From Hoeflea sp. IMCC20628 (GTDB lineage Bacteria; Pseudomonadota; Alphaproteobacteria; Rhizobiales; Rhizobiaceae): a DNA stretch of 64,000 nt. The position numbers and the translations under genes were made by a program. The notes beneath the pieces were generated by a model that did not search any database, was not told the DNA's origin, and saw only the letters and a program-made list of their open reading frames with translations. Each line of letters opens with the position of its first letter. The stretch's first letter is position 1. This document shows positions 41,832-64,000 of this stretch, in pieces. The stretch covers positions 4,413,662-4,477,661 of the forward strand of contig NZ_CP011479.1 in assembly GCF_001011155.1 (NCBI RefSeq), read 5' to 3'.

Positions 41832-41847
41832 TGTTTCACGTGAATCG
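41832..41847. other. parS-like site, outlying
   Basis: TGTTTCACGTGAATCG matches the 16-base parS consensus TGTTTCACGTGAAACA at 14 positions. It lies in the gap after hslV, about 16 kb left of the main cluster. Whether ParB binds it is uncertain. Confidence 0.55.
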
Positions 41848-47591: not shown

Positions 47592-48277
47592 TACTGATCG
47601 GCTTCCGTCGCAATCAGACGCCAGTTAGGGTCGCGCGAGCGCGTATCGCGGGAAAATGTCCAGACATCATTGACGTCCGTCACTTCAACCAGATCACCTT
47701 CTATGACCTCGCCATCCTTGTCCAAAGTTGCCGATATCAGCTGACTCATGATCCGAAGCGTGATGTTGGCTTCCGTACCTTTCATCTCGGCCTGGATAAT
47801 ACTGGATTTTTCAATGCCGACGAAATTCGATCGAACCGTTTCGCCATTGGCCTCGCGCTCATCGATTGCGGCAACGAAGCCGTCATAGACGTCACGAGAC
47901 AACAATCCCTTCAGGGTTTTCCGGTCACCATCGGCATAGGCTGACACGATCATCTCATAGGCCATGGTGGCACCGCCAACAAACTCCTTGGGATCAAAGG
48001 ACGAATCAGCCGAAACCACCTCGCGCAAACCCTTGTTGAGTTCGCTGCCTGGTTCGGCATAGGCGTCAACCGCCACAAACATGTCCGGCTCGGCGCTTTC
48101 CCGGCCGCGGCGCGGAAGCGTGACAACCTTGGGGTCGTCCAGACCCTCGACCGCCGGCGCCTGGTCACGCGGCGGGGCTTCGTGCCCTGTCCGCTTGCCA
48201 AGCACCGACCGAAGCTGAATGAATATGATCACCGCCGCCACAAAAAAGAAGAACGTCACAAAATCAAAGGAACCCAT
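47591..48277 (-). CDS. Tim44/TimA-family membrane-anchored protein
   Basis: A 228-residue alphaproteobacterial Tim44-domain protein. A single N-terminal membrane helix (residues 5-25, FDFVTFFFFVAAVIIFI) is followed by a linker and the Tim44 domain (about 85-225). The bacterial relatives of the mitochondrial import component are thought to act at the inner membrane; the exact role is unresolved. It is the first gene of the Tim44-mltA-smr-xre operon and diverges from fxsA. Confidence 0.9.
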   Translation of the reverse strand: MGSFDFVTFFFFVAAVIIFIQLRSVLGKRTGHEAPPRDQAPAVEGLDDPKVVTLPRRGRESAEPDMFVAVDAYAEPGSELNKGLREVVSADSSFDPKEFVGGATMAYEMIVSAYADGDRKTLKGLLSRDVYDGFVAAIDEREANGETVRSNFVGIEKSSIIQAEMKGTEANITLRIMSQLISATLDKDGEVIEGDLVEVTDVNDVWTFSRDTRSRDPNWRLIATEADQ

Positions 48278-48412
48278 TCCCGCCTTCTTTCGGTTACATC
48301 ATCAATCAGGATGCATATAATGCCCTTGGGCCGATCAATCAAAGGGTCAGGCCATTCTATTTCCTGCTTCCTGCTAAATGCAGGCGCTTTTTCACCGCGG
48401 ACAGTCTTCACC

Positions 48413-48970
48413 ATGCGCTTTTCCCTGATTCCTTTTCTATTGCTCGCCATACCGCTGGCCGAAATCGCGGCCTTTGTCGTGATCGGCGGCCAGATCGGCG
48501 TCTGGGCAACGCTGGGCATGGTTCTTCTGACTGCGATCATCGGCAGCTTTCTGCTTCGGTGGCAGGGAGTGGGGCTGTTCAACAGGATCAACGCGGAGGT
48601 TCGCGCCAATCGCGTTCCAGGTCGCGAACTGGTTCATGGCGTGATGATCCTGGTTGCGGGTGTGTTGTTGCTGACGCCGGGATTCGTCACCGATTCTCTG
48701 GGGTTCCTGCTGTTCGTCCCCTCAATTCGGGATATCGTGTGGCGCCTGGTTAAAGATCGGGTGGTGGTGCAAACCATGGGCGGGTCAACCGCCGGCCCAG
48801 GCAATCCGGGCGCGGGTGCTCATTCAGGTGGCGCTAGCAGGGACGGTGTGGTCGACCTCAATGAGGATGAATTCAAGCGCACAAACGATCCGGCATCGCC
48901 GTGGTCTGGGGATCGCAGCAGCCTGCCCAAGGCCGATCGCAAAGACGGTGGCAGCGCAAACGGGTTGTAA
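48413..48970 (+). CDS. fxsA: FxsA family membrane protein
   Basis: A 185-residue inner-membrane protein with three or four helices in the first 110 residues (LIPFLLLAIPLAEIAAF, then GVWATLGMVLLTAIIG) and a Gly/Ser-rich hydrophilic C-terminal tail. E. coli FxsA suppresses phage F exclusion of T7; its normal role is unknown. It usually lies next to secB in rhizobia, as here. The ribosome site before ATG 48413 is weak. Confidence 0.87.
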   Translation: MRFSLIPFLLLAIPLAEIAAFVVIGGQIGVWATLGMVLLTAIIGSFLLRWQGVGLFNRINAEVRANRVPGRELVHGVMILVAGVLLLTPGFVTDSLGFLLFVPSIRDIVWRLVKDRVVVQTMGGSTAGPGNPGAGAHSGGASRDGVVDLNEDEFKRTNDPASPWSGDRSSLPKADRKDGGSANGL

Positions 48971-49050
48971 GCCCGGTGGCGAAATGCTAGCCCATGCCCG
49001 AACAATTTTCAGGATAACCGCCTCGGCGGATGAAAACAGGGAAGAGCCAC

Positions 49051-49557
49051 ATGGCAAAAGATACGACCCCAAAAGGTGATGCGGCAGCGACTGACGTCAA
49101 AGGCAACGGCGAAGCGCCTTCGCTGAATGTTCTGGCCCAGTACATCAAGGATTTGTCATTCGAAAATCCAGGCGCGCCCAAGTCACTTGGCCCGCGTGAA
49201 AAAGCACCGGAAATCAGCATCAACGTCAACGTCAACGCCAATCCGTTGAGCGAGTCAGAGTTTGACGTCCTGCTGACGATGAATGCCACTGCCAAAACCG
49301 GTGATGCGGTCGTTTTCAACGTCGAGCTGGTCTATGGCGGTGTCTTCCGGGTTGCCAATTTTCCGCAGGAGCACATGTTGCCGCTGCTGTTTATCGAATG
49401 CCCGCGGATGCTTTTCCCGTTTGCCCGTCAGATCATCGCCGATGCGACCCGCAATGGCGGCTTCCCGCCGCTGTTGATCGACCCGATCGATTTTGCACAG
49501 ATGTTCCAGCAGCGCATGGCTGAAGAAAACACCAAGGCACAGGTTGCCACCAATTAG
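49051..49557 (+). CDS. secB: Protein-export chaperone SecB
   Basis: Tetrameric chaperone that holds precursor proteins unfolded for SecA. The 168-residue protein has the family core [13 protein letters not shown] near residue 30 and INVNVNA. ATG 49051 is chosen because AGGGAAGAG lies 4 bases upstream. An intrinsic terminator follows the stop. Confidence 0.96.
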
Positions 49558-49590
49558 GTCAACTGAGACCGGCACTGTCGATAATTTGTG

Positions 49591-49615
49591 AAAGGCCGCC
49601 CACGGGCGGCTTTTT
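49591..49615 (+). terminator. Rho-independent terminator after secB
   Basis: GCCGCCC (49595-49601), two-base loop AC, GGGCGGC (49604-49610), then five T residues. AAAG before the stem can pair with the T tract, so the hairpin may also serve the convergent dnaQ side weakly. Confidence 0.85.
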
Positions 49616-49673
49616 GCATTTCAGGGATTAGACGCTGCTGATCCGGTGAAGCGCAGATCGTGCTGTTGCCGTG

Positions 49674-50366
49674 TCAGGCCTTGTTCCACAGGGCGTCGCC
49701 GCCGATCCGGGCAATCAGTTTTGCATGCGCTTCAAGCTCGACGGCACTCAGGCGCGGTGGCAACGGTCGCAACCGCTCGCCGATTTCGACAACCTCTTCA
49801 TCAGCGTCCCGTTCGACAGAGACAACCTCATCAGTCGACAGTCCGAGTGCTGCCTGGCGGCCGCCATTCATCTCGATATAGACATCGGTCAGCAATTCCG
49901 CATCGAGAAGCGCCCCGTGCTTGTTGCGATGGGAATTGTCGATGCCGTAGCGCCGGCACAGGGCATCAAGGCTGTTGGGCCCCATCGGATGGCGCCTGCG
50001 GGCAAGTGAAAGGGTATCGATCACCAGATCTGGCGAGATAGCGGGGCGGCCAATCCGGGTGTATTCGGCGTTGAGAAATCCCATGTCGAAACTGGCGTTG
50101 TGCGCAACATAGTGCGCGCCCTCAAAAAATTCGGCGATTTGCTGCGCCACGGCGCTGAACACCGGTTTGTCGGCGAGAAACGCATCGGTAATGCCGTGTA
50201 TCGCGAGCGCATCGGGATGAACCTTGCAGCCATCGGGATTGATGAACAGATGCAATGTCCGTCCGGTGGGAAACTGGTTTTCGAGCTCGATGCAGCCGAT
50301 TTCGATGATTCGGTCGGTCTGGTTGCTCAGTCCGGTGGTTTCCGTATCGAAGACAATCTCGCGCAT
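49674..50366 (-). CDS. dnaQ: DNA polymerase III epsilon subunit (proofreading exonuclease)
   Basis: 3'-5' exonuclease of the replicative polymerase. The 230-residue DEDDh enzyme has Exo I FDTETTG at residues 6-12, Exo II in HNASFDMGF near 100 and Exo III HGALLDAELL near 160. ATG 50366 lies 1 base after the coaE stop. It is the last gene of the operon PPDK-regulator-maf-aroE-coaE-dnaQ. Confidence 0.96.
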   Translation of the reverse strand: MREIVFDTETTGLSNQTDRIIEIGCIELENQFPTGRTLHLFINPDGCKVHPDALAIHGITDAFLADKPVFSAVAQQIAEFFEGAHYVAHNASFDMGFLNAEYTRIGRPAISPDLVIDTLSLARRRHPMGPNSLDALCRRYGIDNSHRNKHGALLDAELLTDVYIEMNGGRQAALGLSTDEVVSVERDADEEVVEIGERLRPLPPRLSAVELEAHAKLIARIGGDALWNKA

Positions 50367-50367
50367 T

Positions 50368-50967
50368 CTATAGGCCCTTCTTCGAGGATTCGGTCAGCTT
50401 TGCGACGATCTCGGCGACCTGCTGGCGTGCCGCCTCCAGTCCGCCACCGGTATCAATCACATGATCGGCGCGTGCGCGTTTTTCAGCATCAGGAACCTGC
50501 CGCGCCAGGATAGCTTCGAATTTCTCCAACGTCATCCCCGGACGGTCCAGTACCCGCTGGCGCTGGATCTCCGGCGCGCAGCTGACAACGACGATGACAT
50601 CAACCCGGTTTTCGGCTCCGGTTTCAAACAGCAGAGGAATATCCACCAGCACCATCGGTTCACCGTCGGCGCGCGCCTCTTCGATGAAGCTTTTCTCACG
50701 CGCCCGCACCAGCGGATGAATGATCGCCTCCAGGCGGGTGAAATCAGCGGGGGCGGCCATCAGTTTTTTCGACAGGATTTCCCGGTTGACGACGCCGTCG
50801 GACGCGGTCCCAGGAAATGCCTGATCGATCAAGGGCGCTGCCTCGCCGCGATAGAGCTCATGCACAATCTCGTCGGCGCTGATCACCGGCACGCCAAGTG
50901 CTCGGAACATCTCCGAGGTGGTAGATTTTCCCATGCCGATAGAGCCTGTCAGGCCGATGACGATCAT
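50368..50967 (-). CDS. coaE: Dephospho-CoA kinase
   Basis: Last step of CoA synthesis. The 199-residue P-loop kinase has GLTGSIGMGKST near residue 5, the DIPLLFE substrate motif and a lid rich in Arg. ATG 50967 overlaps the aroE stop by one base (TGATG); the longer frame lies within aroE. The window thus holds both coaA and coaE. Confidence 0.96.
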   Translation of the reverse strand: MIVIGLTGSIGMGKSTTSEMFRALGVPVISADEIVHELYRGEAAPLIDQAFPGTASDGVVNREILSKKLMAAPADFTRLEAIIHPLVRAREKSFIEEARADGEPMVLVDIPLLFETGAENRVDVIVVVSCAPEIQRQRVLDRPGMTLEKFEAILARQVPDAEKRARADHVIDTGGGLEAARQQVAEIVAKLTESSKKGL

Positions 50968-51821
50968 CAGTGCGCTTCCATGTCTGAAATTATCAACTGC
51001 CGCAATTCGGGCGTAACCACCGGTTTGACCCCGAACCATTTCTGAAATCCGGGCGCTGCCTGATGCAACAGCATGCCAAGACCGTCAGTTGTAGCCACGC
51101 CCTGATGCTTGGCCATTGCCAATATTGGCGTTTCCAAGGGGATATAGACAATATCGGTGACCAGCGCATCCGATGCCATGGTGGTGAAATCGATTGGTGG
51201 AACCTCGGTCCCTGCCATCCCGAGCGTCGTGGTGTTGACGAAGAGATTCGCGCCTTTGATCACGTCTGCAAGATTTTCCAAGCCATGCGCTGAGACGCAC
51301 GGGCCAAAGCGTTCAGCCAAAGTGCTGGCGCGGGATGCCGTGCGATTGACAACGCTGACCTCATCAAAGCCGCGCGCCAGCAAGGCATGGACAACCGCGC
51401 GACTGGCGCCGCCGGCTCCAAGAACAATCGCCCTTTTGCCGTGATCCCAACCTGCTGCTGTTTCGTCCAGATTGGCGGCAAAGCCGAGAGAATCGGTGTT
51501 TGTCGCCATCAACCGACCATCCTCGAGCCACACCGTATTGGCAGCGCCGATCAGCCGAGCGGTTTCATCAATCTCGTCAACGAGAGTAATGATGGCTTCC
51601 TTGTGCGGAACAGTGACATTGCCGCCGGTAAACCCGGAAGATCTGTCTTTCAGCGCACGGAAAAACGTCGGCAGATCTTCCGGCGCAACGTCTACCGGGT
51701 CGTAACTGCCGGTCAGGCCAGCCTGGTTGAGCCAATAGCGATGAATCATCGGTGACCGGGAATGGCCAATCGGATGACCGATGACAAAAGCGCGCGACGA
51801 ATTCTGGATGTCTTTATCCAT
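50967..51821 (-). CDS. aroE: Shikimate dehydrogenase
   Basis: NADPH-dependent reduction of dehydroshikimate to shikimate on the path to aromatic amino acids. The 284-residue protein has [10 protein letters not shown] near residue 15, NVTVPHKE with the catalytic Lys near 70, and NADP loop [11 protein letters not shown] near 135. ATG 51821 overlaps the maf stop by 8 bases; the neighbouring TTG is less likely. Confidence 0.96.
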
Positions 51822-52407
51822 CAATGGCCTGCAACTCCCGGAGTTTGGCCAACAGCGGCAGCATCGGCAATCCGATTATGGTGAAGTAGTCACCCTCAAA
51901 CCGCTGAAACAGCTGAATACCTTCGCCTTCAAACTGGTAAGCACCAACCGAGGAAAGAGCCCGATCGCCGACATTGGACAAATGCCGGCCAATGAAACCC
52001 GGATCGAGATTCCGCATGGTCATGCCCGCCACGGAAACATGCCGCCATATGGTCTCGCCATCCTGGGCCAGGACAATGGCACTGTTTAGATGGTGGGTTC
52101 GGCCTGACAACTGCAACAGCCGCCGTCGTGCTTCCTCCATGGTACCGGTCTTGTGAAAGATTTCTCCATCAAGCGACAGGGTCTGATCCGAGCCGATGAC
52201 AAGTGCGCCAGAATTGCGCCCCGAAACGTCCTGCGCCTTGGCCTCGGCAAGCACAGAGGCGACATCTTCAGCGGTCAAACCATCGAGCGTCTGTTCAATA
52301 ACGCGCTCATCGATCTGAGCCGGCTCGATCTCAAATGTCAGGCCGGCATTTTCAAGCAAAGCTCTGCGGAAAGGGCTGGCGGATGCAAGCACAAGGCGCG
52401 GCGGCAT
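51814..52407 (-). CDS. maf: Maf-like nucleoside triphosphate pyrophosphatase
   Basis: House-cleaning pyrophosphatase acting on non-canonical or pyrimidine nucleotides. The 197-residue protein has [12 protein letters not shown] at the start and [12 protein letters not shown] in the middle, both Maf signatures. Two in-frame ATGs lie close together; 52407 is used because TAAGGAG is 6 bases upstream of it. Confidence 0.93.
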
Positions 52408-52446
52408 GGGCATCTCCTTAAACAAGGGGGCTGGCTTTCGACCGGG

Positions 52447-53268
52447 TTAGCGCCACTTGGGACGCAAGGCAAGGATTGCCGCTGAGGTCTCTTCGATGGA
52501 ACGGCGGGTTACGTCAATTACCGGCCAACCGTGGCGTTCGCAAAGCGACCGGGCATATTTCAGCTCTTCGCTGATCAGCGCGCGATCAGTGTAATGCTCC
52601 CCCTGGTAACCGGTGGTCGAACCCAAAACCCGGTTGCGGCGAACCTGGGCGATTCGATCTACAGAGGCAATGAGGCCCACCACAAGGGGTTTTGTTGCTG
52701 TAACCAGGCCATCGGGAAGCGGCACTCCATGCACGATCGGTATATTCGCGGTCTTGATGCCGCGATTGGCAATGTAGATGCTTGTCGGGGTTTTCGATGT
52801 GCGGCTGATGCCGAGGATTACCAGATCGGCTTCGTCAAAATCTGCGGGCAACTGGCCGTCGTCGTGATCAAGCGTAAAATTCAGCGCGTCGATTCGCTTG
52901 AAATACTCTTCGCCCATGGCGTGTTGCGCCCCGACGCGGCGACGTGACGGAGCGCCGAGATAGGACTGGAACACATTGATGACCGGCTCGAGCACCGAGA
53001 CGCTTGGAAGTCCCATGTCGCGGCATTTCAGTTCGATGATCGAGGAGAGCTCGGCGTCGACTATGGTGTAGAGCACAATCCCCGGCGCACCATCTATGGC
53101 GTCGAGTACTGCAAACAACTGCTTGCGGGTGCGAATCAGTGGATAGACATGCTCAAGTGCCTGCGCGCCCTGGAACTGCGCGGCCGCAGCACGACCGGCG
53201 GCCATCAGAGTCTCTCCCGTAGAGTCCGATATCAGATGCAGATGGAAGTAATTTTTGCTCTGCTCCAC
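52447..53268 (-). CDS. Pyruvate,phosphate dikinase regulatory protein (DUF299)
   Basis: Bifunctional kinase-pyrophosphorylase that switches PPDK, or PEP synthetase in relatives, by phosphorylating a Thr using ADP. The 273-residue protein has [10 protein letters not shown] near the start and the P-loop [12 protein letters not shown] near residue 150. The start is taken as GTG 53268 ([12 protein letters not shown]), with CGGAG upstream. The frame is open 150 bases further, but that segment is origin-like DNA and does not match the family. It opens the maf-aroE-coaE-dnaQ operon. Confidence 0.92.
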
Positions 53269-53646
53269 ATTATTCTCCGAGGGGTGTTGATAACCGGGGA
53301 CAGGCTCGAGGTAAGGGTCCCGACCTCCAGATTGCAAGGGATAACCTCGGGGTTTGTCCACAATGGCCAAACGCGGGACAGAATTCGGGAATGATTTTGG
53401 CATATAGGGGATAACCATCTTACGGAGAAATCCGATTGGCCATTAACATTCTCCGACAACGCCTGAATCAATTGGATTTAATTGGGGCGACCCGGAGAAG
53501 CGATGAAATCCGATTGGCCTTCCGGAATGGCACAGTTTATAGGATCAACCTGTGGATAGACTGTGGACAGAGTCCAATCCCCGTAAAACACAGACTCATA
53601 GAATCAGAATCCTTTTCAAATAGGATTTGTTTTAAGGAAGTGGTGG
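53269..53646. other. Probable chromosomal replication origin (oriC)
   Basis: 378-base gap next to hemE, where alphaproteobacterial origins (Caulobacter, Sinorhizobium) lie. DnaA-box-like sequences: TTGTCCACA at 53354-53362, TGTGGATAG at 53551-53559 and TGTGGACAG at 53562-53570, each one or two bases off TTATCCACA or its complement. GATAACC occurs at 53289, 53340 and 53410. GAAATCCGATTGGCC is repeated exactly at 53427 and 53505. GANTC (CcrM) sites occur at 53465, 53570, 53593, 53601 and 53607. A T/A-rich stretch (53605-53637) could be the unwinding element. The hemE promoter must also lie here. Confidence 0.75.
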
Positions 53647-54687
53647 ATGACAAATCCGAGTGATCGTAAGGTGATGAAGGTACTGGCTGGGGAGACAGTG
53701 TTTCCGCCACCTCTCTGGCTGATGCGACAGGCAGGGAGATATTTGCCCGAGTACCGGGCCACACGTGCCACAGCCAAGGGATTTCTCGATGTGTGCTACA
53801 CACCGGATCTGGCTGTCGAGGTGACGATGCAGCCGATCCGCCGGTTTGGCTTTGATGCGGCAATCCTGTTTTCAGACATCCTCGTCATTCCCGATGCGCT
53901 TGACCGCAATGTGCGCTTTGTCGAGGGAACCGGGCCATTGATGGATCCGATTTCGCCTGAAGCGATTGCCTCGCTTGATGCGTCCGGGATGCACGCCCAT
54001 CTGGCTCCGGTCTACGAAACGGTGCGGCGGTTGCGCGCGGAACTTCCGCCTGAAACCACGCTGCTGGGTTTTTGCGGCGCGCCCTGGACTGTGGCGACCT
54101 ACATGATCGCCGGGCGCGGAACACCTGATCAGGCGCCGGCGCGGCTATTTGCCATGCAGCATCCCGAAGAATTCATGATGCTGCTCAATCTGCTGTCGGA
54201 AATTTCAGCTGACTATCTGATCGCCCAGATCGATGCGGGTGCCGATGCAGTGCAGATTTTCGATTCCTGGGCCGGCGTGCTGGGCGAGCGGGACTTTGCA
54301 GATTTCGCTGTTGGTCCGATGAAGCGGATGGTCGACAGGATTCGTGCGGAAAGACCCGGTGTTCCAATTATCGGTTTTGCCAAGGGCGCTGGTGCCATGC
54401 TGCAAAACTATCGGGCTTTGACCGGGATTGACTGCGTTGGCCTTGACTGGACGGTCCCGTCCGGTCTGGCGCGTGAGATCCAGAAGGGCGGGGCTGTCCA
54501 AGGCAATCTCGACCCGTTGTTGATGGTCGCAGGCGGTGAAGCGCTCGACCGGGGCGTTGACGAGGTTCTTGAAACACTGGGGAATGGACCGCTGATTTTC
54601 AATCTGGGACACGGAATCACGCCGCAGGCGGATCCGGAAAATGTCACGCGTTTGATGAACCGGGTCAGGGGCGCTGAGAAGCTGTGA
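53647..54687 (+). CDS. hemE: Uroporphyrinogen decarboxylase
   Basis: Decarboxylates uroporphyrinogen III to coproporphyrinogen III in heme synthesis. The 346-residue barrel has the invariant [16 protein letters not shown] near residue 20, with the catalytic Arg pair, and GFCGAPWT near 135. ATG 53647 is preceded by AAGGAAG. It lies directly right of the probable origin, and hemJ overlaps its stop (GTGA). Confidence 0.97.
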
Positions 54688-55229
54688 CACACGACAGCGC
54701 AACAAGTGCCGTTGAAGGCAGCAAAGCCAGTGCCAAGGCCTATCTGTCGATTTCCATCGTGGTGGCTCTGGCGGGGGCGGCCTGGTGGTTTGATCCGGAT
54801 TGGCTATATGGCTGGATCAAGGTGTTGCATGTCGTTGCAGTGATTTCCTGGATGGTTGGTTTGTTCTATCTGCCGCGTCTGTTCGTCTATCATGCGGATG
54901 CGGCTACCGGGAGCGAGCCAGCAGTCACCTTCGAGGTGATGGAGCAGCGTCTGGTCAAGGTGATCATGACACCCGCAATGATGGTTTCCTGGGTGACGGG
55001 TCTTTGGCTGGCCTGGAGCGGTTTCGGATTTCTTGGGATCTGGCTGTGGGTGAAACTGGCCGCGGTGGTTGGACTGACCGTGTTTCACGTTCTTCTCAGC
55101 CGGTCTGCGCGGCGCTTTGCCAAAGGCGAAAACGCCTGGACAGCTCGGCAATGGCGGATGGCCAATGAGATCCCGACCGTGCTGATGATCGTCGTGGTGA
55201 TCATGGTGATTATCAAGCCATTCGCCTGA
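54684..55229 (+). CDS. hemJ: Protoporphyrinogen IX oxidase HemJ
   Basis: Membrane protein of 181 residues of the HemJ (UPF0093) family, which performs the penultimate oxidation of heme synthesis in bacteria lacking HemG or HemY. About five hydrophobic segments are visible. The conserved His and Arg lie in [12 protein letters not shown] and YLPRLFVYH. It starts with GTG 54684, overlapping the hemE stop by 4 bases. Confidence 0.93.
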
Positions 55230-55294
55230 TCTGACCGATATTTATCGAGACTTAGCCTGATTGGGCCCATTTTGCTGCATAACGGGGCTTGCGG

Positions 55295-55310
55295 CGTTTC
55301 ACGTGAATCG
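55295..55310. other. parS-like site upstream of rho
   Basis: CGTTTCACGTGAATCG matches the 16-base parS consensus at 13 positions and lies in the 199-base gap between hemJ and rho. Weak, but about 3 kb from the strong cluster. Confidence 0.5.
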
Positions 55311-55428
55311 CTATCTAACAAACAACGTCTTCAAGGCGGGCGCCAGTATCAGTCTGGCCGGCTTCCCAAGCCGGATCCCATAATGCCCGCCGCTTCCCAT
55401 ACTATTAAATACAGAATTTGGATTTCCC

Positions 55429-56694
55429 ATGCAGGAAATGAAGCTTCAAGAGCTCAAGAACAAGTCCGCTACCGATCTGTTGGCGTTTGCCGAATCAGTC
55501 GAAGTCGAGAACGCCAGTGTCTTGCGCAAGCAGGAACTGATGTTTGCGATCCTCAAACAGCTCGCGGCACAGGATGTCGAGATTATTGGTGAGGGTGTCG
55601 TCGAACTGCTGCAGGATGGTTTTGGCTTCATGCGGTCAGCCAATGCCAACTATCTGCCTGGCCCGGATGATATCTACATTTCGCCATCGCAAATCCGTCG
55701 CTTCTCGTTGAAGACCGGCGATACCGTCGAAGGTCCGATTCGCGGACCCAAGGAAGGCGAGCGCTATTTCGCTCTGCTCAAGGTCAATACGATCAATTTC
55801 GAGGATCCTGAAAAGATCCGCCACAAGGTGCATTTCGACAATCTGACACCGCTATATCCAGATGAGCGGTTCAAGATGGAGGTCGAGAATCCGACGACCA
55901 AGGACATATCCGCACGGGTGATCGATCTGGTAGCGCCGATCGGCAAGGGCCAGCGTGGCCTGATTGTTGCGCCGCCCCGCACCGGTAAAACCGTGCTGTT
56001 GCAGAATATCGCCCACTCGATCACCGCAAATCATCCCGATTGCTATCTGATCGTGCTGTTGATTGATGAACGGCCTGAGGAAGTCACCGACATGCAGCGC
56101 TCGGTCAAGGGCGAAGTGGTGGCATCGACCTTCGATGAACCCGCTGTTCGTCACGTCCAGGTAGCCGAGATGGTGATCGAGAAGGCAAAGCGTCTGGTTG
56201 AACACGGTCGGGATGTGGTCATTCTGCTCGATTCAATCACCCGTCTTGGCCGTGCCTACAACACCGTCGTGCCGTCATCAGGCAAGGTTTTGACCGGTGG
56301 TGTGGATGCCAACGCCCTGCAGCGTCCGAAGCGCTTTTTTGGTGCTGCGCGTAACATCGAGGAAGGTGGCTCGCTGACTATCATCGCCACCGCCTTGATT
56401 GATACCGGATCGCGGATGGATGAAGTGATCTTTGAGGAGTTCAAGGGCACCGGTAACTCGGAAATCGTTCTTGACCGCAAAGTTGCAGACAAGAGAATTT
56501 TCCCGTCAATGGATATTCTCAAGTCCGGCACCCGCAAGGAAGACCTTCTGGTTCCAAAGCAGGATCTGCAGAAGATCTTTGTTCTGCGCCGTATTCTGGC
56601 ACCGATGGGAACAACCGATGCGATCGAGTTCCTGATCGACAAACTCAAGCAGACCAAGACCAACAGCGACTTTTTCGATTCAATGAATACCTGA
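55429..56694 (+). CDS. rho: Transcription termination factor Rho
   Basis: Hexameric RNA helicase for Rho-dependent termination. The protein has 421 residues, with an N-terminal RNA-binding domain ([20 protein letters not shown], about 65-85), Walker A PPRTGKT near 183 and Walker [12 protein letters not shown] near 265. ATG 55429 is preceded by a long T/A-rich leader, with no strong ribosome site. mnmE follows 37 bases after its stop. Confidence 0.98.
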
Positions 56695-56731
56695 GGAAGC
56701 TTAGAATCATCGGATTCGATTCGACACCGGT

Positions 56732-58063
56732 ATGAATATGCGGGATACCATCTTCGCTCTTTCGACAGGACACCCACCATCGGGTGTTGCTGTCATCCGG
56801 ATATCTGGCCCTGGTGTTCGATTCGGACTCGAAACGTTAACAGGTTCACTTCCGCCTCCGCGTAGCGCACAGTTGAGCGTGATACGGGACAGCAATGGTT
56901 TGGTCCTTGATCGCGGTATAATTCTCTATTTTCCAGGTCCAGGTTCCTTTACGGGCGAGGATGTCGCAGAATTGCAGATCCATGGCAGCCGCGCATCTAT
57001 CGCGGCTGTGCTTGGGGCCCTGTCGGGGCTTGAGGGCTTTCGTCCAGCCGAGGCTGGTGAGTACACTCGAAGGGCTTTCGAGAACGGCCGTATGGATCTG
57101 ACGGCGGTTGAAGGTCTGTCAGACTTGATCCGCGCCGAAACCGAGAGCCAGCGCCGACAAGCACTCAGTCAGACCGATGGTTCCCTGCAGATCATGTATG
57201 ACGGTTGGGCCAAACGTTTGACCCATGCTCGCGCCATGATAGAGGCGGAACTCGATTTTTCCGATGAAGAAGATATTCCTGGTTCAGTGGCAGACAAAAT
57301 CTGGCCGGATATGGTTTTGGTCGCGCATGAAATATCTCAACACCTCGAGAAAGCGCGCCATGGTGAGATCGTCCGTGAAGGATTCCGAATTGCGCTCGTC
57401 GGCCCACCAAATGTCGGTAAATCTTCACTGCTGAATGCTTTGGCTGGACGTGACGTTGCAATTGTGTCCGAATCGCCGGGTACGACCCGGGATGTCATAG
57501 AAGTCCGGCTGGATATTGGTGGTCACCTCGTCGTGCTTCAGGACACCGCAGGTCTGCGCGAAACTGAAAATTCAGTTGAACTTGAAGGCATACGTCGCAG
57601 CAGGATGACAGCTGAGAATGCTGACCTGGTTCTGGACATTCACGACCTTAGCTGTATCGATACTGAAAACCCATTCCCTGTGGGTGTGAACGACAAAACA
57701 GTGCCTGTCTTTTCCAAGCTGGATTTGGTGGGAGATGATATGCTCCCTACAATAGATGCGGGTTTAGCTATTTCCAGCAAATCCGGGATGGGCCTGGATG
57801 AGCTCGTGGCCAAAATTTCCGGGCGGCTCTCCATTCTCGACCTGGATTCCGGGGAGGGCCTACCCAGCCGGGAACGTCATGTTTCGCTTTTGCAAAGATG
57901 CAGGAAGGAACTAGGTCTTGCGCTCGACGATGCAGCAGCTCCGATTGAAGTCCGCTCTGAACATCTGCGATTTGCTGCGACAGCGCTTGGCAGAATCACA
58001 GGCAGGATAGATGTGGAAGATCTGCTCGGTGTAATTTTTTCAGAGTTCTGCGTAGGCAAATGA
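56732..58063 (+). CDS. mnmE: tRNA modification GTPase MnmE (TrmE)
   Basis: Works with MnmG to form 5-aminomethyl-type modification at the wobble U34 of certain tRNAs. The 443-residue protein has an N-terminal folate-binding domain (DTIFALSTGHPPSGVAVIR), an inserted G domain with G1 GPPNVGKSS near 225 and G3 DTAG, and the C-terminal FCVGK with the conserved Cys. The G4 motif reads SKLD rather than NKxD. ATG at 56738 (two codons in) is a possible alternative start. Its stop codon is part of a parS-like site. Confidence 0.95.
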   Translation: MNMRDTIFALSTGHPPSGVAVIRISGPGVRFGLETLTGSLPPPRSAQLSVIRDSNGLVLDRGIILYFPGPGSFTGEDVAELQIHGSRASIAAVLGALSGLEGFRPAEAGEYTRRAFENGRMDLTAVEGLSDLIRAETESQRRQALSQTDGSLQIMYDGWAKRLTHARAMIEAELDFSDEEDIPGSVADKIWPDMVLVAHEISQHLEKARHGEIVREGFRIALVGPPNVGKSSLLNALAGRDVAIVSESPGTTRDVIEVRLDIGGHLVVLQDTAGLRETENSVELEGIRRSRMTAENADLVLDIHDLSCIDTENPFPVGVNDKTVPVFSKLDLVGDDMLPTIDAGLAISSKSGMGLDELVAKISGRLSILDLDSGEGLPSRERHVSLLQRCRKELGLALDDAAAPIEVRSEHLRFAATALGRITGRIDVEDLLGVIFSEFCVGK

Positions 58064-58076
58064 TTCACGTGGAACA
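58061..58076. other. parS-like site overlapping the mnmE stop
   Basis: TGATTCACGTGGAACA: 14 of 16 positions match the parS consensus. The first three bases are the mnmE stop codon. It is the first of three sites in the 162-base mnmE-mnmG gap. Confidence 0.75.
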
Positions 58077-58097
58077 TTTGGACTGCAAGTAGGCTCG

Positions 58098-58113
58098 TGA
58101 TTCACGTGAAACA
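58098..58113. other. parS site
   Basis: TGATTCACGTGAAACA: 15 of 16 positions match parS. It lies 37 bases after the first site in the same gap. Confidence 0.85.
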
Positions 58114-58152
58114 TCTTTTGTCTCGAATGCGGTGTGATTCCTGCGGTCTTGT

Positions 58153-58168
58153 TGTTTCACGTGAAACG
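58153..58168. other. parS site
   Basis: TGTTTCACGTGAAACG: 15 of 16 positions match parS. It is the third site of the cluster, 58 bases before the mnmG start. Confidence 0.87.
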
Positions 58169-58225
58169 TATTCCCTTGACATCGATGGGCATATGCCCAA
58201 AACAGGCTCCTTCCGGAGATAGCTC

Positions 58226-60097
58226 ATGATTTATGATGTCGTTGTGATCGGCGGTGGACACGCAGGCAGTGAAGCTGCTTCCGCTTCAGCACGCCTTGGC
58301 GCCAGAACCGCACTGGTGACCCACAAGTTTGATACCATCGGAACTATGTCCTGCAATCCAGCGATTGGTGGCTTGGGCAAGGGGCACCTTGTACGTGAAA
58401 TAGATGCAATGGACGGATTGATGGGCGTTGCCGCCGACCTGTCCGGAATTCAATTCCGTATGCTCAATCGCCGTAAAGGGCCAGCCGTGTGGGGTCCACG
58501 CACCCAGGCGGACCGAAAACTCTACAGGCAGGCGATACAGAAGCTTCTGACGGAAACGCCCAACCTGGATATTATCGAAGGCGAAGTGGATGATCTCGAA
58601 CTGACCGGAGAGGTTTTGTCCGGAGTTCGCTTGAAAGATGGACGCGTGGTCACCTGCTCTGCAGCGGTCTTGACAACAGGCACTTTTCTTCGCGGCCTCA
58701 TTCATATTGGAGATCATAAAATTCCGGCCGGGAGGATGAATGAAGATCCTTCGCTGGGATTGTCGGGCACATTGGAGCGGGCGGGCTTTAAGCTCGGGCG
58801 ATTGAAAACTGGAACCCCGGCGCGGCTTGACGGTGATACCATTGATTGGTCACTGGTCGAATGGCAAGAAGCTGATGCTGAACCGGTCCCGTTCTCTTTC
58901 ATGACAGACAAGATCGAGGTTCGGCAAGTTCGGTGCGGCATTACCCGTACGACCCAGGCCACCCACAAGATTATTCAGGACAATATTCACCGCTCGGCGA
59001 TGTATTCCGGTCAAATTGAAGGTGTCGGACCGCGTTATTGCCCTTCAATCGAGGACAAGATTGTCCGGTTCGGTGAGAGAGATGGTCATCAGATTTTTCT
59101 GGAGCCGGAAGGGCTCGATGATTCAACCGTTTACCCCAATGGTATCTCCACCTCCCTGCCGGAGGATGTTCAGGAAGCTTTCATTCGTACCATCCCGGGT
59201 CTGGCTTCGGTGAAAATCGTTCAGCCTGGCTATGCGATCGAATACGATCATGTGGATCCGCGGGAACTGAGCCAAGCCCTGGAGACTCGCCGGATCAGCG
59301 GTCTTTATCTGGCCGGCCAGATCAATGGGACAACCGGCTATGAAGAGGCTGCTGCCCAGGGGCTGGTTGCCGGTTTGAATGCGGCCTTGAAGGTTCAATC
59401 CCGACCAGTCTGTCTGTTCAGCCGGACAGACTCCTATATTGGTGTGATGGTAGATGATCTTACGACCAAGGGGGTCAGTGAACCCTACCGGATGTTTACC
59501 TCCAGGGCTGAATACCGTCTCTCACTTCGGGCCGACAATGCAGAGCTGCGCCTCACTCCGAAGGCAATCGCGCTTGGATGTGCATCTGATTTGCGCATTG
59601 CCAGGTACGAGGCGTATTTTGATTCGTTAGCGGAATGTTTGGATGATCTGAAAACCCGAAACCTGTCACCAAACGAGGCCAAGGCACATGGTCTGGCTTT
59701 GAACCAGGATGGAATTCGCCGTTCTGCCTTCCAATTGTTGTCTTATCCCAATGTGGGCGTGGCTGATCTGATCAGCATATGGCCAGATCTCGGCAGGCAT
59801 AATCGTCAGATCCTGACTGCAGCGGCGATCGATGCGATCTATGCGGTTTACATGACCCGTCAGAAACAGGATATCGATAATCAGAAACGAGATGAGACCC
59901 GCTTGATACCGGATTGGTTTCAATATGATAATCTATCCGGCCTATCGAAGGAACTACGGCAAAAGCTGGATTCGGTTCGACCACCGTCAATCGGGCACGC
60001 AGAACGGATCGAAGGAATGACCCCGGCTGCTGTCGCTTTGATTCTTGCGCATCTGCGTAAAGGTCAGAATGGGCCGGCAGCGAGAGAGATTGCTTGA
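58226..60097 (+). CDS. mnmG: tRNA modification flavoprotein MnmG (GidA)
   Basis: FAD-dependent partner of MnmE. The 623-residue protein has the FAD loop [10 protein letters not shown] near residue 9, the GidA motifs [11 protein letters not shown] and PQxQ-type GPRTQADR, and the helical C-terminal domain that docks MnmE. ATG 58226 follows CCGGAGAT. rsmG begins 1 base after its stop, the common gidA-gidB coupling. Confidence 0.98.
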
Positions 60098-60098
60098 T

Positions 60099-60761
60099 AT
60101 GCCTAAGAGTTTGCCTGTTGAAGGCTTTTTTCCGAATTCCGAATTTGTTTCACGTGAAACATGGGATCGGTTGCAGGACTATGCAGATCTCGTGCGCAAA
60201 TGGCAGGGATCGTTCAATCTGATCTCACCCCACACACTGCCGGTGCTGTGGCAGCGGCACGTTCTTGACAGTCTACAACTCTATCGGCTTCAGCCAAAAC
60301 CGCTGACCTGGGTCGATATGGGCAGCGGTGCTGGCTTTCCGGGCCTGGTCACCGCTATTTGCCTGGCAGAGCAGAATGCGGGATGGGTCCATCTGGTGGA
60401 GAGCAACAACAAAAAGGCGGCTTTTCTTCGTCAGGTGATTCTGAAAACCGGCGCAAGAGCCAGCGTTCATCCGATGCGCGTGGAAGCGAAGGCTCCGGAA
60501 CTTGATAATGTGGACGCCATTTCAGCACGGGCGCTCGCATCTCTGCCGGATTTGTTGACCTATGCCTGGCCGATTGCGCTGGACAACCCGAATGTCGAGA
60601 TGTGGTTCCATAAAGGACTGGATTACCCTGAAGAAGTGCGATCAGCGCGTGACCTTTGGGCTTTTGATCTGATAGAACATCATAGTCTGGCGCAGGATGG
60701 ATCGGCGATCCTGCAAATCAGCAATCTTTCCAAGCAAAATCAGGCCGTGGACCCTTCTTGA
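60099..60761 (+). CDS. rsmG: 16S rRNA (G527-N7) methyltransferase RsmG (GidB)
   Basis: Methylates G527 in 16S rRNA; loss gives low-level streptomycin resistance in other bacteria. The 220-residue enzyme has SAM loop DMGSGAGFPGL near residue 70. Codons 16-22 (FVSRETW) contain a perfect parS site. ATG 60099 is preceded by GAGAGAG, and a longer frame reading out of mnmG is not supported. Its stop overlaps parA by one base. Confidence 0.96.
   Translation: MPKSLPVEGFFPNSEFVSRETWDRLQDYADLVRKWQGSFNLISPHTLPVLWQRHVLDSLQLYRLQPKPLTWVDMGSGAGFPGLVTAICLAEQNAGWVHLVESNNKKAAFLRQVILKTGARASVHPMRVEAKAPELDNVDAISARALASLPDLLTYAWPIALDNPNVEMWFHKGLDYPEEVRSARDLWAFDLIEHHSLAQDGSAILQISNLSKQNQAVDPS
60146..60161. other. 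Perfect parS site within rsmG
   Basis: TGTTTCACGTGAAACA, the exact 16-base parS consensus, inside the rsmG coding sequence and about 600 bases before parA. It is the best match in the window and the most likely ParB nucleation site. Confidence 0.93.
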
Positions 60762-61555
60762 TGCAACTTTCAAAGAACCGGATCATCACCATTGCCAATC
60801 AAAAGGGTGGTGTAGGCAAAACCACCACCGCCATTAATCTCGCCACAGCATTGGCAGCGATAGGCGAAGAGGTGTTGATCGTCGATATCGACCCGCAGGG
60901 CAATGCCAGCACAGGTTTGGGCATCGACCGCAAGGACCGCGGAGTGTCAGCTTATGATTTGCTGACCCATAACGCCTCGGTCAGCGAAACAGTAATGCAG
61001 ACATCTGTACCGCATCTGAGCATCATTCCCTCGACCATGGATTTGCTCGGTGTGGAGATGGAGATTGCCGGCATGTCGGACAGGGTTTTCCGGCTGCGAA
61101 AAGCGCTTCAGGCAGAAGATGCCCGCCGCTATAATTACGTGCTGATAGATTGCCCACCATCACTCAATCTTTTGACGATGAACGCGATGGCCGCCGCCCA
61201 TTCGATTCTGGTTCCTCTGCAGTGCGAATTCTTTGCGCTCGAGGGTTTGAGCCAGTTGCTTGAGACGGTCGAGCAGGTCCGCGATTCGCTCAATCCAACC
61301 CTGGATATTCAGGGCATCGTGATGACCATGTATGATCCACGCAATAATCTTGCGCATCAGGTGGTGGCCGATGTCCGGGCGCATCTTGGCGACAAGGTTT
61401 ACAGGACGCTGATTCCGAGAAATGTCCGGGTTTCCGAAGCGCCATCCTATGGCAAACCGGCAATCCTCTATGATTTGAAGTGCTCCGGAAGCCAGGCCTA
61501 TCTTCAATTGGCTTCCGAAGTCATCCAGCGCGAACGTAACCGCAAGGCCGCCTGA
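60761..61555 (+). CDS. parA: Chromosome-partitioning ATPase ParA
   Basis: Deviant Walker-A ATPase that moves ParB-parS complexes. The 264-residue protein has KGGVGKTTT at residues 15-23, D(I)DPQGN near 45 and VLIDCPPSLN near 128. It lacks the N-terminal HTH of plasmid type Ia ParA, as expected for a chromosomal copy. ATG 60761 shares one base with the rsmG stop (TGATG). Confidence 0.97.
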   Translation: MQLSKNRIITIANQKGGVGKTTTAINLATALAAIGEEVLIVDIDPQGNASTGLGIDRKDRGVSAYDLLTHNASVSETVMQTSVPHLSIIPSTMDLLGVEMEIAGMSDRVFRLRKALQAEDARRYNYVLIDCPPSLNLLTMNAMAAAHSILVPLQCEFFALEGLSQLLETVEQVRDSLNPTLDIQGIVMTMYDPRNNLAHQVVADVRAHLGDKVYRTLIPRNVRVSEAPSYGKPAILYDLKCSGSQAYLQLASEVIQRERNRKAA

Positions 61556-61578
61556 TTCACCGGGGAACAGGCGCAAGA

Positions 61579-62487
61579 ATGGAAAACACTATGGCAGAAG
61601 ATGTTTCGAAAAAGCGTCTTGGACGCGGCTTGGCAGCGCTGATCGGCGAAATTGATCAGCCCTCTGCTGCCCAGACAACACCCACAATTTCTGCGGACCG
61701 GTTCGTGCCAATTGAACATGTCAGCCGCAACCCGCGCAATCCCCGGCGGACATTTGATCCTGCGGATCTCGAGGATCTGGCGCGCTCGATCCGTCAACAT
61801 GGCATTGTGCAGCCGGTTATGGTGCGCACCGCCGAAGCGGGCCGCTTTGAAATCATTGCCGGTGAACGCCGTTGGCGGGCAGCGCAGATGGCCGGACTGG
61901 TGGAAATCCCGGTCATCGTGCGCGATGTGGATGACAAGACGGCGCTTGAAATTGCCATTGTCGAGAATGTGCAGCGCGCTGACCTGAATGCGCTGGAAGA
62001 AGCCCAGGGCTATGAGCAACTCATCGCTCTGTATGGTTATACCCAGAATGATTTGGGCGAGGTCATCGGCAAGAGCCGCAGTCATGTGGCCAATTCGCTT
62101 CGGTTGCTCAAACTCCCCGATGAAGTTCGCGCCATGTTGGCTGAAGGCGCATTGTCGGCCGGCCATGCCCGCGCCATTGTCTCGACCACCGATCCGATCG
62201 GCTTGGCAAAATTGATCGCTGACCGTGGGTTGTCGGTGCGTGACGCTGAACGTCTCGCCCAGAAGGATGCGGATCAGGCAGGCAAACCCGCTGGCCTGGA
62301 AACCAAGTCGTCCGGCCACGCAGATGCAAAAGACGCAGATACTGTCGCTCTTGAGAAAAGTCTGTCCGACGTTTTGGGACTGAAGATTGAATTGATCCAC
62401 AAAGGCCAGGGTGGCCAGATGCGGATCGATTACAAATCACTTGATCAACTTGATGAACTTTGCCGGTTATTGGGCGAGAAACAGTAG
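61579..62487 (+). CDS. parB: Chromosome-partitioning protein ParB
   Basis: CTP-dependent clamp that loads at parS and spreads. The 302-residue protein begins with the ParA-stimulating basic motif KKRLGRGLAALIG. It then has the CTP-binding GERRWRAAQ and ENVQRADL segments, the HTH IGKSRSHVANSLRLL near 155, and a C-terminal dimerisation domain. ATG 61579 is used; ATG 61591 (MAEDVSKKR) is equally possible and closer to relatives. It is convergent with holA. Confidence 0.96.
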   Translation: MENTMAEDVSKKRLGRGLAALIGEIDQPSAAQTTPTISADRFVPIEHVSRNPRNPRRTFDPADLEDLARSIRQHGIVQPVMVRTAEAGRFEIIAGERRWRAAQMAGLVEIPVIVRDVDDKTALEIAIVENVQRADLNALEEAQGYEQLIALYGYTQNDLGEVIGKSRSHVANSLRLLKLPDEVRAMLAEGALSAGHARAIVSTTDPIGLAKLIADRGLSVRDAERLAQKDADQAGKPAGLETKSSGHADAKDADTVALEKSLSDVLGLKIELIHKGQGGQMRIDYKSLDQLDELCRLLGEKQ

Positions 62488-62508
62488 ATATATCAACAGG
62501 ATGCGGCT

Positions 62509-63537
62509 TTAACGGCTGAGCAGGCAGGTTCGCAGCAGAGCCTGCCGGGCGATGGCTGATTCCAGATGCGGCCGGCGACGTGTTTCCAGAACTGCGTCAT
62601 AGAGACGCCGCATCTCGCGATTGATCGCTTTCAAGTGCCAGTGACGCAGGGCGCGTTCGACGACAGGCTTGCGCTTGAAGTGAATGCCACGGCCCTTTTC
62701 GGCAATTGCTTGGGCGGGCTGTTTATGATGGTTTTCAACCAGAGACCGCATGGCGTCGAGTTGCTCGAACTGGACTATACAGCCGCGCAGTACCAGGAAC
62801 ACCGAGGTTTTCGAGGACAGTATCCGCTCTAGAGCGGCCTCCAGGCGCAATTTGTCGCCTGAAAACACCGCATCAATTGCATCATCGACGGAAAGCGCTG
62901 CGACGTCACCCATTGCGTCGATCACGTCTTCCTCGGTAACTGTCCCCGTGCCGTGACAGTAAAGTGCGAGCTTTTTCAATTCGTTGCGGCTGGCCAACCG
63001 GTCCCCGCCCAAAAGCTGCGTCAGTCTCCGGCGTGCATCGCCTTGGACAACCAGACCACTGCCGCCGAGTTCTTCGTCGATGAGGGTCTGAAACCCGCTG
63101 GCATCATCGGAATAGCAGGGGATCGCAAGGGTTGAACGTGCGTTCTCGATCAGTTTGCGCAGGCCGCTGCCCTTTTTCAGGTCTCCGGCTTCTACAAGCA
63201 GGTGGGACGAGCCGGGATCCGTCTCGGCCAGAGCGGTCAACGAGTCGATGAGAGCACGTTCATTGCCGGCGTTCTTTATCCAGACAAGCCGATCGCCGCC
63301 GAACAGGCTTATGGCGCCGAATTCATCCGCCAGACGTCCCGGATCTCCGGAAAGGTCCGAGGCCTCGAGCTTCAGAACAGCGAAATCATCCTTGAGATCA
63401 ACACCGGTCTTGGCAGCAACCTGGGCGGCGCGTTCAGACACAAGCCCACGATCCGGCCCATAGACAAGGATTATCCGGTAAGGTGTGCCTTCGCGGCGCA
63501 GGAAGCTCGAATATTCGTGGGATTTGAGTTGAGCCAT
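62509..63537 (-). CDS. holA: DNA polymerase III delta subunit
   Basis: Clamp-loader subunit that opens the sliding clamp. The 342-residue protein is weakly conserved but recognisable by the N-terminal RIILVYGPDRGLVSERA and the three-domain length. ATG 63537 begins MAQLKSHEYS, and the gap to upstream lptE is 25 bases, so the two are co-transcribed as in most proteobacteria. Confidence 0.93.
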   Translation of the reverse strand: MAQLKSHEYSSFLRREGTPYRIILVYGPDRGLVSERAAQVAAKTGVDLKDDFAVLKLEASDLSGDPGRLADEFGAISLFGGDRLVWIKNAGNERALIDSLTALAETDPGSSHLLVEAGDLKKGSGLRKLIENARSTLAIPCYSDDASGFQTLIDEELGGSGLVVQGDARRRLTQLLGGDRLASRNELKKLALYCHGTGTVTEEDVIDAMGDVAALSVDDAIDAVFSGDKLRLEAALERILSSKTSVFLVLRGCIVQFEQLDAMRSLVENHHKQPAQAIAEKGRGIHFKRKPVVERALRHWHLKAINREMRRLYDAVLETRRRPHLESAIARQALLRTCLLSR

Positions 63538-63562
63538 GCGGCAGCCGCGACCAATCTACGAC

Positions 63563-64000
63563 TTATCGGGCAAGCGCTGACGCGACATCAGCCCGGACAA
63601 GAACTGCCACTGCGTGGGCCGCGCGGTCTTCTGCTTCACGTTTGGCTCGTACTTGCGCGAAATGCTGCGAGGGAAGATCCAGTTGTGCATCGGCGAAGCG
63701 GGAACCGGATTTGACGGTTTCTCCGGTTGCGACATTCTCGAGCACGTATTTCGCCGTTACCGTCGCGCGCGCGGCCGAGAATTCATTGTCCACTCCGCCA
63801 GGCAAGACGCCGGCAACGGTGGAGGACACAGTCAGGTCGAGGCGATAGGCACCGTCGGGTTGCTCGCCGCCGAAACCAAGCACAAGTTCATTGCGCACGG
63901 TTTGTTCAACGCGGGAATCGGCCACCGAAACCGAGACGGACTGTTTTTGGCCGGACATCGTTCCATAAAGTGGCTGCGCCTGACAACCGGCCAACAATGA
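63563..64000 (-). CDS. lptE: LPS-assembly lipoprotein LptE (partial, 5' end outside)
   Basis: Outer-membrane lipoprotein that plugs LptD and helps place LPS at the surface. The window holds about 146 codons including the lipobox LAGC, so only the signal-peptide start is missing. The C-terminal region is helical and charged (AQVRAKREAEDRAAHA). It lies directly upstream of holA. The identification rests on context and general character, because LptE is poorly conserved. Confidence 0.87.
   Translation of the reverse strand, partial: SLLAGCQAQPLYGTMSGQKQSVSVSVADSRVEQTVRNELVLGFGGEQPDGAYRLDLTVSSTVAGVLPGGVDNEFSAARATVTAKYVLENVATGETVKSGSRFADAQLDLPSQHFAQVRAKREAEDRAAHAVAVLVRADVASALAR

Follow-up and report, generated by a model that had tools for sequence, protein, structure and literature searches.

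Where on the chromosome of Hoeflea sp. IMCC20628 does replication start? We addressed this question in a window of 64,000 nucleotides, comprising bases 4,413,662-4,477,661 of contig C1 (4,842,322 bases), which belongs to an assembly of 5,119,813 bases in three contigs. An initial annotation, made from the sequence of this window, had named the gap at 53269-53646 as the probable chromosome origin. Our results support that proposal through a change in GC skew, synteny, DnaA-like boxes, an unstable segment, and nearby parS sites. We consider it very probable that the gap is the DnaA-dependent oriC of the chromosome, of the alphaproteobacterial ppsR/COG1806-hemE type.

The gap is bounded by a divergent pair of genes, ppsR running leftward and hemE rightward, both identified by Pfam matches on window frames. 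By HemE, the closest named relative is a Hoeflea MAG (locus L003), with 88% identity.

53269..53646, no strand: predicted oriC gap from ppsR to hemE, 378 bases, defined by flanking frames, skew, boxes, and synteny
52447..53268, minus strand: ppsR (PPDK regulator, COG1806/DUF299), PF03618 with E 2.2e-86 in the longest frame, GTG start at 53268
53647..54687, plus strand: hemE, PF01208 with E 5.5e-114

The extent of the gap depends on where ppsR begins. Its longest frame reaches 53418, and the PF03618 domain starts from residue 60, that is, at about 53241. From the position of the domain we infer a GTG start at 53268, and the gap therefore occupies 53269-53646. On this reasoning the shorter ppsR frame is the better call. 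The initial annotation had cautioned that the longest frame would make the gap falsely coding, which applies to about 150 of its 378 bases, and its description of a 378-base gap adjoining hemE and the PPDK-regulator gene is borne out by the Pfam-identified flanks. The gap is 52% AT overall, and Rfam gave no match in 48000-64000. A perfect 15-base direct repeat, GAAATCCGATTGGCC, lies within the origin at 53427-53441 and 53505-53519, with the copies 78 bases apart; by eye, the genus alignment keeps the place of the second copy only.

GC skew was sampled in 60 stretches and the window, which together represent 1.262 Mb, or 26% of C1. Skew was positive in all 31 stretches of the right arm; on the left arm it was negative in 19 of 29 and slightly positive in the other 10. 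With three further stretches included and the window left out, mean skew was +0.040 on the right arm (32 stretches) and -0.007 on the left (31). The skew evidence is a step, not a clean sign change, and because left-arm skew is so weak, it is the change point and not the raw minimum that carries the argument for an origin. Within 4.375-4.497 Mb, that change point falls at window position 52,368, and between 51,576 and 53,298 the statistic does not drop below 90% of its maximum. The cumulative skew of the window itself is lowest in the rows for 50-53 kb and rises thereafter; for the entire 122-kb stretch (4.375-4.497 Mb), the lowest cumulative skew is reached 30.7 kb before the left edge of the window. 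An opposite switch in both skew and KOPS-like octamers occurs near 2.065 Mb, where the sign is plus until 2,064,683 and mostly minus from 2,067,473. The point exactly opposite the gap is 2.046 Mb, and the arms measure about 2.44 and 2.40 Mb. The GC-skew test suggested with the initial annotation, run here on the 26% sample, was thus passed, with a change at window 51.6-53.3 kb and the reverse change at about 2.065 Mb.

The octamer GGGNAGGG, which was chosen from these same data although it fits the KOPS of E. coli, is polar over the sampled arms, with 73 plus and 8 minus on the right and 59 minus and 8 plus on the left; a listing of the first 100 of 402 places provides no map. Within about 180 kb of the origin, the octamers (7 minus and 2 plus on the left, 5 of each on the right) are too sparse and mixed to place it. 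Arm skew is very unequal across C1 (stretches L083-L142 and L238-L240), yet the octamers are equally polar on both arms. A search with a dif consensus gave one match with 3 mismatches on C3 and none on C1, while the reversed control also gave one, and the sampled C1 stretches held nothing convincing. Given that there is no convincing dif, we place the terminus by skew and KOPS-like octamers.

A chromosomal origin would be expected to carry sites for DnaA, which we scored by mismatches to TTATCCACA.

53285..53293, minus strand: DnaA-like box TTATCAACA, 1 mismatch, mean column conservation 0.90 in 73 aligned gaps
53354..53362, plus strand: DnaA-like box TTGTCCACA, 1 mismatch, mean column conservation 0.93
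53406..53414, minus strand: weak DnaA-like site TTATCCCCT, 2 mismatches
53551..53559, minus strand: DnaA-like box CTATCCACA, first of a tandem pair, 1 mismatch, TGTGGA core in 17/17 genus rows
53562..53570, minus strand: DnaA-like box CTGTCCACA, second of the tandem pair, 2 mismatches, TGTGGA core in 17/17 genus rows

The three DnaA-box-like sites that had been noticed before (53354, 53551, and 53562, two of them adjacent) are all present, with 1, 1, and 2 mismatches. Missing from that list were the weak site at 53406 and the box at 53285-53293, which is better conserved. The strict motif TTWTNCACA is absent from the gap, with its sole match in the window at 49491, and "DnaA-box-like" is therefore the right term. 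The sites are more numerous than in shuffled sequence. There are three with at most one mismatch, whereas 2000 dinucleotide shuffles averaged 0.115 and none of them reached three; when two mismatches are allowed there are five, compared to a shuffle mean of 1.34, with 18 of the 2000 shuffles reaching five. Across the 1.262 Mb of sampled genome, sites with at most one mismatch number 116. The richest stretch of about 378 bases in all 61 stretches (1.262 Mb) starts at 53193 and overlaps the gap, with six sites at up to two mismatches, and six other stretches reach five. The enrichment extends to 72 relatives, where DnaA-like sites occur at 7.23 per kb in the ppsR-hemE gap and at 0 (hemJ-rho, 69 loci), 0.15 (mnmE-mnmG, 58), and 0.29 (rho-mnmE, 54) per kb in control gaps. 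The genus alignment in which the tandem pair was followed has 17 rows, made up of the window, 15 genus loci, and L003, with the L003 and L146 rows identical; genus locus L156 was left out because its fetched stretch has no ppsR. In the aligned gaps of the family the pair is less well kept, with conservation of 0.53 and 0.61.

Adjoining the tandem pair is a segment that could serve for unwinding, and to the right of hemE there is a partition locus.

53584..53633, no strand: AT-rich, thermodynamically unstable segment from a stability scan of the window, probable unwinding element
58061..60161, no strand: parS-like sites at 58061, 58098, 58153, and 60146, with others at 41832 and 55295
60758..61555, plus strand: parA, PF13614 with E 1.5e-61
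61579..62487, plus strand: parB, PF02195 with E 4.5e-36

The T/A-rich segment described earlier beside the boxes corresponds to 53584-53633, which is the second least stable 50-base locus in the window and ranks third when scanned at 30 and at 70 bases. The expectation of parS and parAB a few kilobases away also proved correct, since the parS cluster and parAB lie 2-9 kb from the gap (parA and parB at about 7-8 kb). At up to 3 mismatches there are six parS-like sites, compared to 0.13 expected. The partition genes do not score as repABC type: parA reached 111 bits, where the cut-off for RepA is 348, and parB 52, where that for RepB is 202. Together, these features suggest how the origin may work. 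DnaA would bind the outer boxes (53285 and 53354) and the tandem pair (53551 and 53562), and its assembly would melt the adjoining AT-rich segment at 53584-53633, where helicase would be loaded. Two forks would then run in opposite directions to the terminus near 2.065 Mb, and ParB bound to parS a few kilobases away would segregate the new origins.

The same arrangement recurs among relatives. In 72 of the 80 loci fetched with HemE, ppsR adjoins hemE, and in 57 of those 72 the gap is 395-404 bases long. The genus sample comprised 18 genomes, including our own, with a HemE match at E <= 1e-100 in 17. Across the 73 aligned gaps, mean column conservation is 0.59 for the whole gap, and it is highest in the box at 53354 (0.93), in TGTTGATAA at 53285 (0.90), and in a block at 53576-53610 (0.88), within which 53592-53603 reaches 0.94. 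In the other eight loci (L004, L043, L050, L056, L058, L063, L066, and L077) ppsR is not beside hemE; several are of Aurantimonas/Aureimonas type, and the block and DnaA-like sites are still found upstream of hemE. One record, L073, is titled Bacillus subtilis SK6B4, but its hemE region is of Rhizobiales type (66% identity), so a labelling error or contamination is probable.

Within the hemE-origin type, the gap is an ordinary example. The chromosomal origin of Sinorhizobium meliloti, the subject of a 2006 study by Sibley et al., is reportedly adjacent to hemE and in need of DnaA boxes. Loci from S. medicae and Sinorhizobium sp. (L040, L035, and L057) share both the gene order and the block with Hoeflea, but their gaps are 402-404 bases long compared to 378, and some mid-gap consensus boxes have been lost in Hoeflea. 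As in Hoeflea, where no exact match to the CtrA consensus TTAA-N7-TTAA occurs in the gap (one place, 53467, has 2 mismatches), the S. meliloti origin is reported to be without CtrA motifs (PMC4433202). The Caulobacter crescentus origin, Cori, lies between hemE and COG1806 and has DnaA boxes and an AT-rich stretch (PMC1914354). The resemblance to Caulobacter in the hemE-side position, which the initial annotation had drawn, thus extends to the same gene pair, DnaA-like boxes, and an AT-rich stretch. Unlike Cori, for which five CtrA sites and one IHF site are reported (PMC1914354), the Hoeflea gap has no exact CtrA or IHF consensus; for IHF (WATCAANNNNTTR), a degenerate site may be present. The origins of Wolbachia and Rickettsia are likewise hemE-linked gaps with DnaA boxes, about 380-455 bases long (PMC1914354). 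They are far richer in AT, at about 70-83% compared to 52% in Hoeflea, and in Wolbachia COG1253 stands in place of COG1806.

It can be argued that the gap holds nothing more than divergent promoters and that replication really starts at some other place close to the skew step, such as dnaA or the parS/parAB cluster. Most of the change-point interval (51.6-53.3 kb) is to the left of the gap, and parS and parAB are 2-9 kb away. Also counted against the gap are the weak left-arm skew, the cumulative minimum outside it, the uninformative octamers near the origin, and the missing strict TTWTNCACA. Nevertheless, nowhere else in the 61 sampled stretches are DnaA-like sites as dense as in the gap, while other gaps of the same loci are almost devoid of them. 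The best dnaA match is 387 kb off, at C1 4,079,967, and a scan limited to one promoter type found no sigma-70-like promoter in 53200-53700. We therefore regard an origin elsewhere as very unlikely and retain the ppsR-hemE gap as oriC.

Does the block contribute to this origin? It is a candidate element that goes beyond the original observation.

53576..53610, plus strand: conserved block carrying GANTC sites, its 17-base core GACTCATAGAATCAGAA lying at 53593-53609, conservation 0.88 compared to 0.59 for the gap

With a length of about 35 bases, the block is as conserved as the best DnaA-like boxes, and it overlaps the unstable segment. The exact 17-mer GASTCWWAGAAWNARAA is present once in 76 of the 80 loci, the other four being without the exact form, and it is single-copy in our own genome at zero mismatches. 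Among 121 family genomes, it was found in 78, one of which has two copies, and was missing from 43; the reversed control gave 3 matches. Where family loci were fetched, the 17-mer is upstream of hemE and on the hemE strand in all 29, at a distance of 50-99 bases in 28 and of 179 in L184. As judged from the class and order samples, the block is not recognised outside the family. The 17-mer was found in 12 of 385 genomes of the class (our own included), of which only our own has it at hemE, and the block was recognisable in 2 of 29 order-level loci, both of the same family. (For the order, loci were obtained from 30 of the 60 matched genomes; setting our own aside leaves 29.) When up to two mismatches were allowed in our own genome there were 7 matches compared to 14 for the control, and since control matches outnumber real ones, relaxed searches are uninformative. 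We found no description of the block in the literature that we searched, but one may already be in print.

A serious rival to an origin function is that the block is a promoter or leader element of hemE, perhaps read by GcrA/CcrM. We consider this quite possible, if somewhat short of an even chance. Its constant orientation and its position 50-99 bases upstream of hemE in 28 of the 29 family loci speak for such a role, as does the behaviour of the eight loci in which ppsR is not adjacent, where a recognisable block (exact in five) stays with hemE. However, the spacing to hemE may be 179 bases or more (L184, L056, and L063), the block overlaps the unstable segment, and the scan for the one promoter type found nothing there.

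If the block is instead part of the origin, its GANTC sites could make unwinding depend on methylation. GANTC is the CcrM site. Three copies lie at 53593, 53601, and 53607 (spanning 53593..53611), and the gap has two others at 53465 and 53570. Four of them fall within 40 bases at 53568, a concentration equalled in one other of the 61 stretches. The sequence GANTC-NN-AGAA occurs in the last 130 bases of 87 of 88 gaps (72 relatives, 15 genus loci, and the window, with one sequence counted twice), N being C in 74 and G in 13; in the sole exception, L080, it is farther upstream. Of 16 palindromes compared across these gaps, GANTC shows the strongest enrichment. In 72 relatives there are 3.81 GANTC per gap compared to 1.04 from whole-locus density, and in the 29 order-level loci 3.86 per 450 bases compared to 1.06. 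Furthermore, a CcrM-like methylase is encoded, with a RAMA domain over its cut-off, but its 630 bits against NF050803 are below that model's cut-off of 830.

As a signature of the origin, GANTC was rejected on two counts. Its density of 9.4 per kb in the ppsR-hemE gap compares with 5.2, 12.0, and 12.0 in other gaps of the same loci, and the five sites in the gap were reached in 112 of 2000 shuffles. Rough gap calling in our own genome gave 2.54 GANTC per kb in 262 gaps, and the oriC gap, of which this calling took in 228 of 378 bases, has one of the two second-highest counts. The rho-mnmE gap of the window (56695-56731, 37 bases) has three GANTC, and the relatives show 12 per kb both there and between mnmE and mnmG; an abundance of CcrM sites may thus be shared by gaps around the origin. 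For most chromosomes of Alphaproteobacteria, an enrichment of GANTC in intergenic DNA has been described (PMC8116508). The Caulobacter origin is known to have GANTC motifs, and a ccrM deletion in minimal medium had DNA content like that of the wild type (PMC3973325). Two other papers describe repABC origins as GANTC-rich (PMC6090056) and the second, repABC origin of Agrobacterium as affected by CcrM (PMC11514494).

Since GANTC density does not exceed that of two of the three control gaps, we offer methylation control only as a hypothesis. The proposal that unwinding is tied to CcrM methylation through the GANTC in the block, with firing thereby restricted to once per cycle, is favoured by the near-universal GANTC-NN-AGAA, the top rank of GANTC among palindromes, the encoded enzyme, and the cluster at 53568. 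Against it stand the control gaps, the shuffles, the general intergenic enrichment (PMC8116508), the Caulobacter mutant (PMC3973325), and the low methylase score, and on balance we find it improbable. We would extend the idea to the Rhizobiaceae just as tentatively: the block, at the margin of the unwinding segment, could be an element dedicated to the origin and normally present once per genome, with its methylation by CcrM licensing or blocking the melting driven by DnaA, but we doubt that it is.

Whatever the role of the block, the chromosome origin has now been placed to within a few hundred bases. If methylation control were true, the GANTC block would serve, with no need of CtrA, the purpose for which Caulobacter uses CtrA, and its control by CcrM would parallel the control by Dam and SeqA in E. 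coli. For the question of how Rhizobiaceae limit firing to once per cycle, the conserved and normally single-copy block offers a precise target for mutation.
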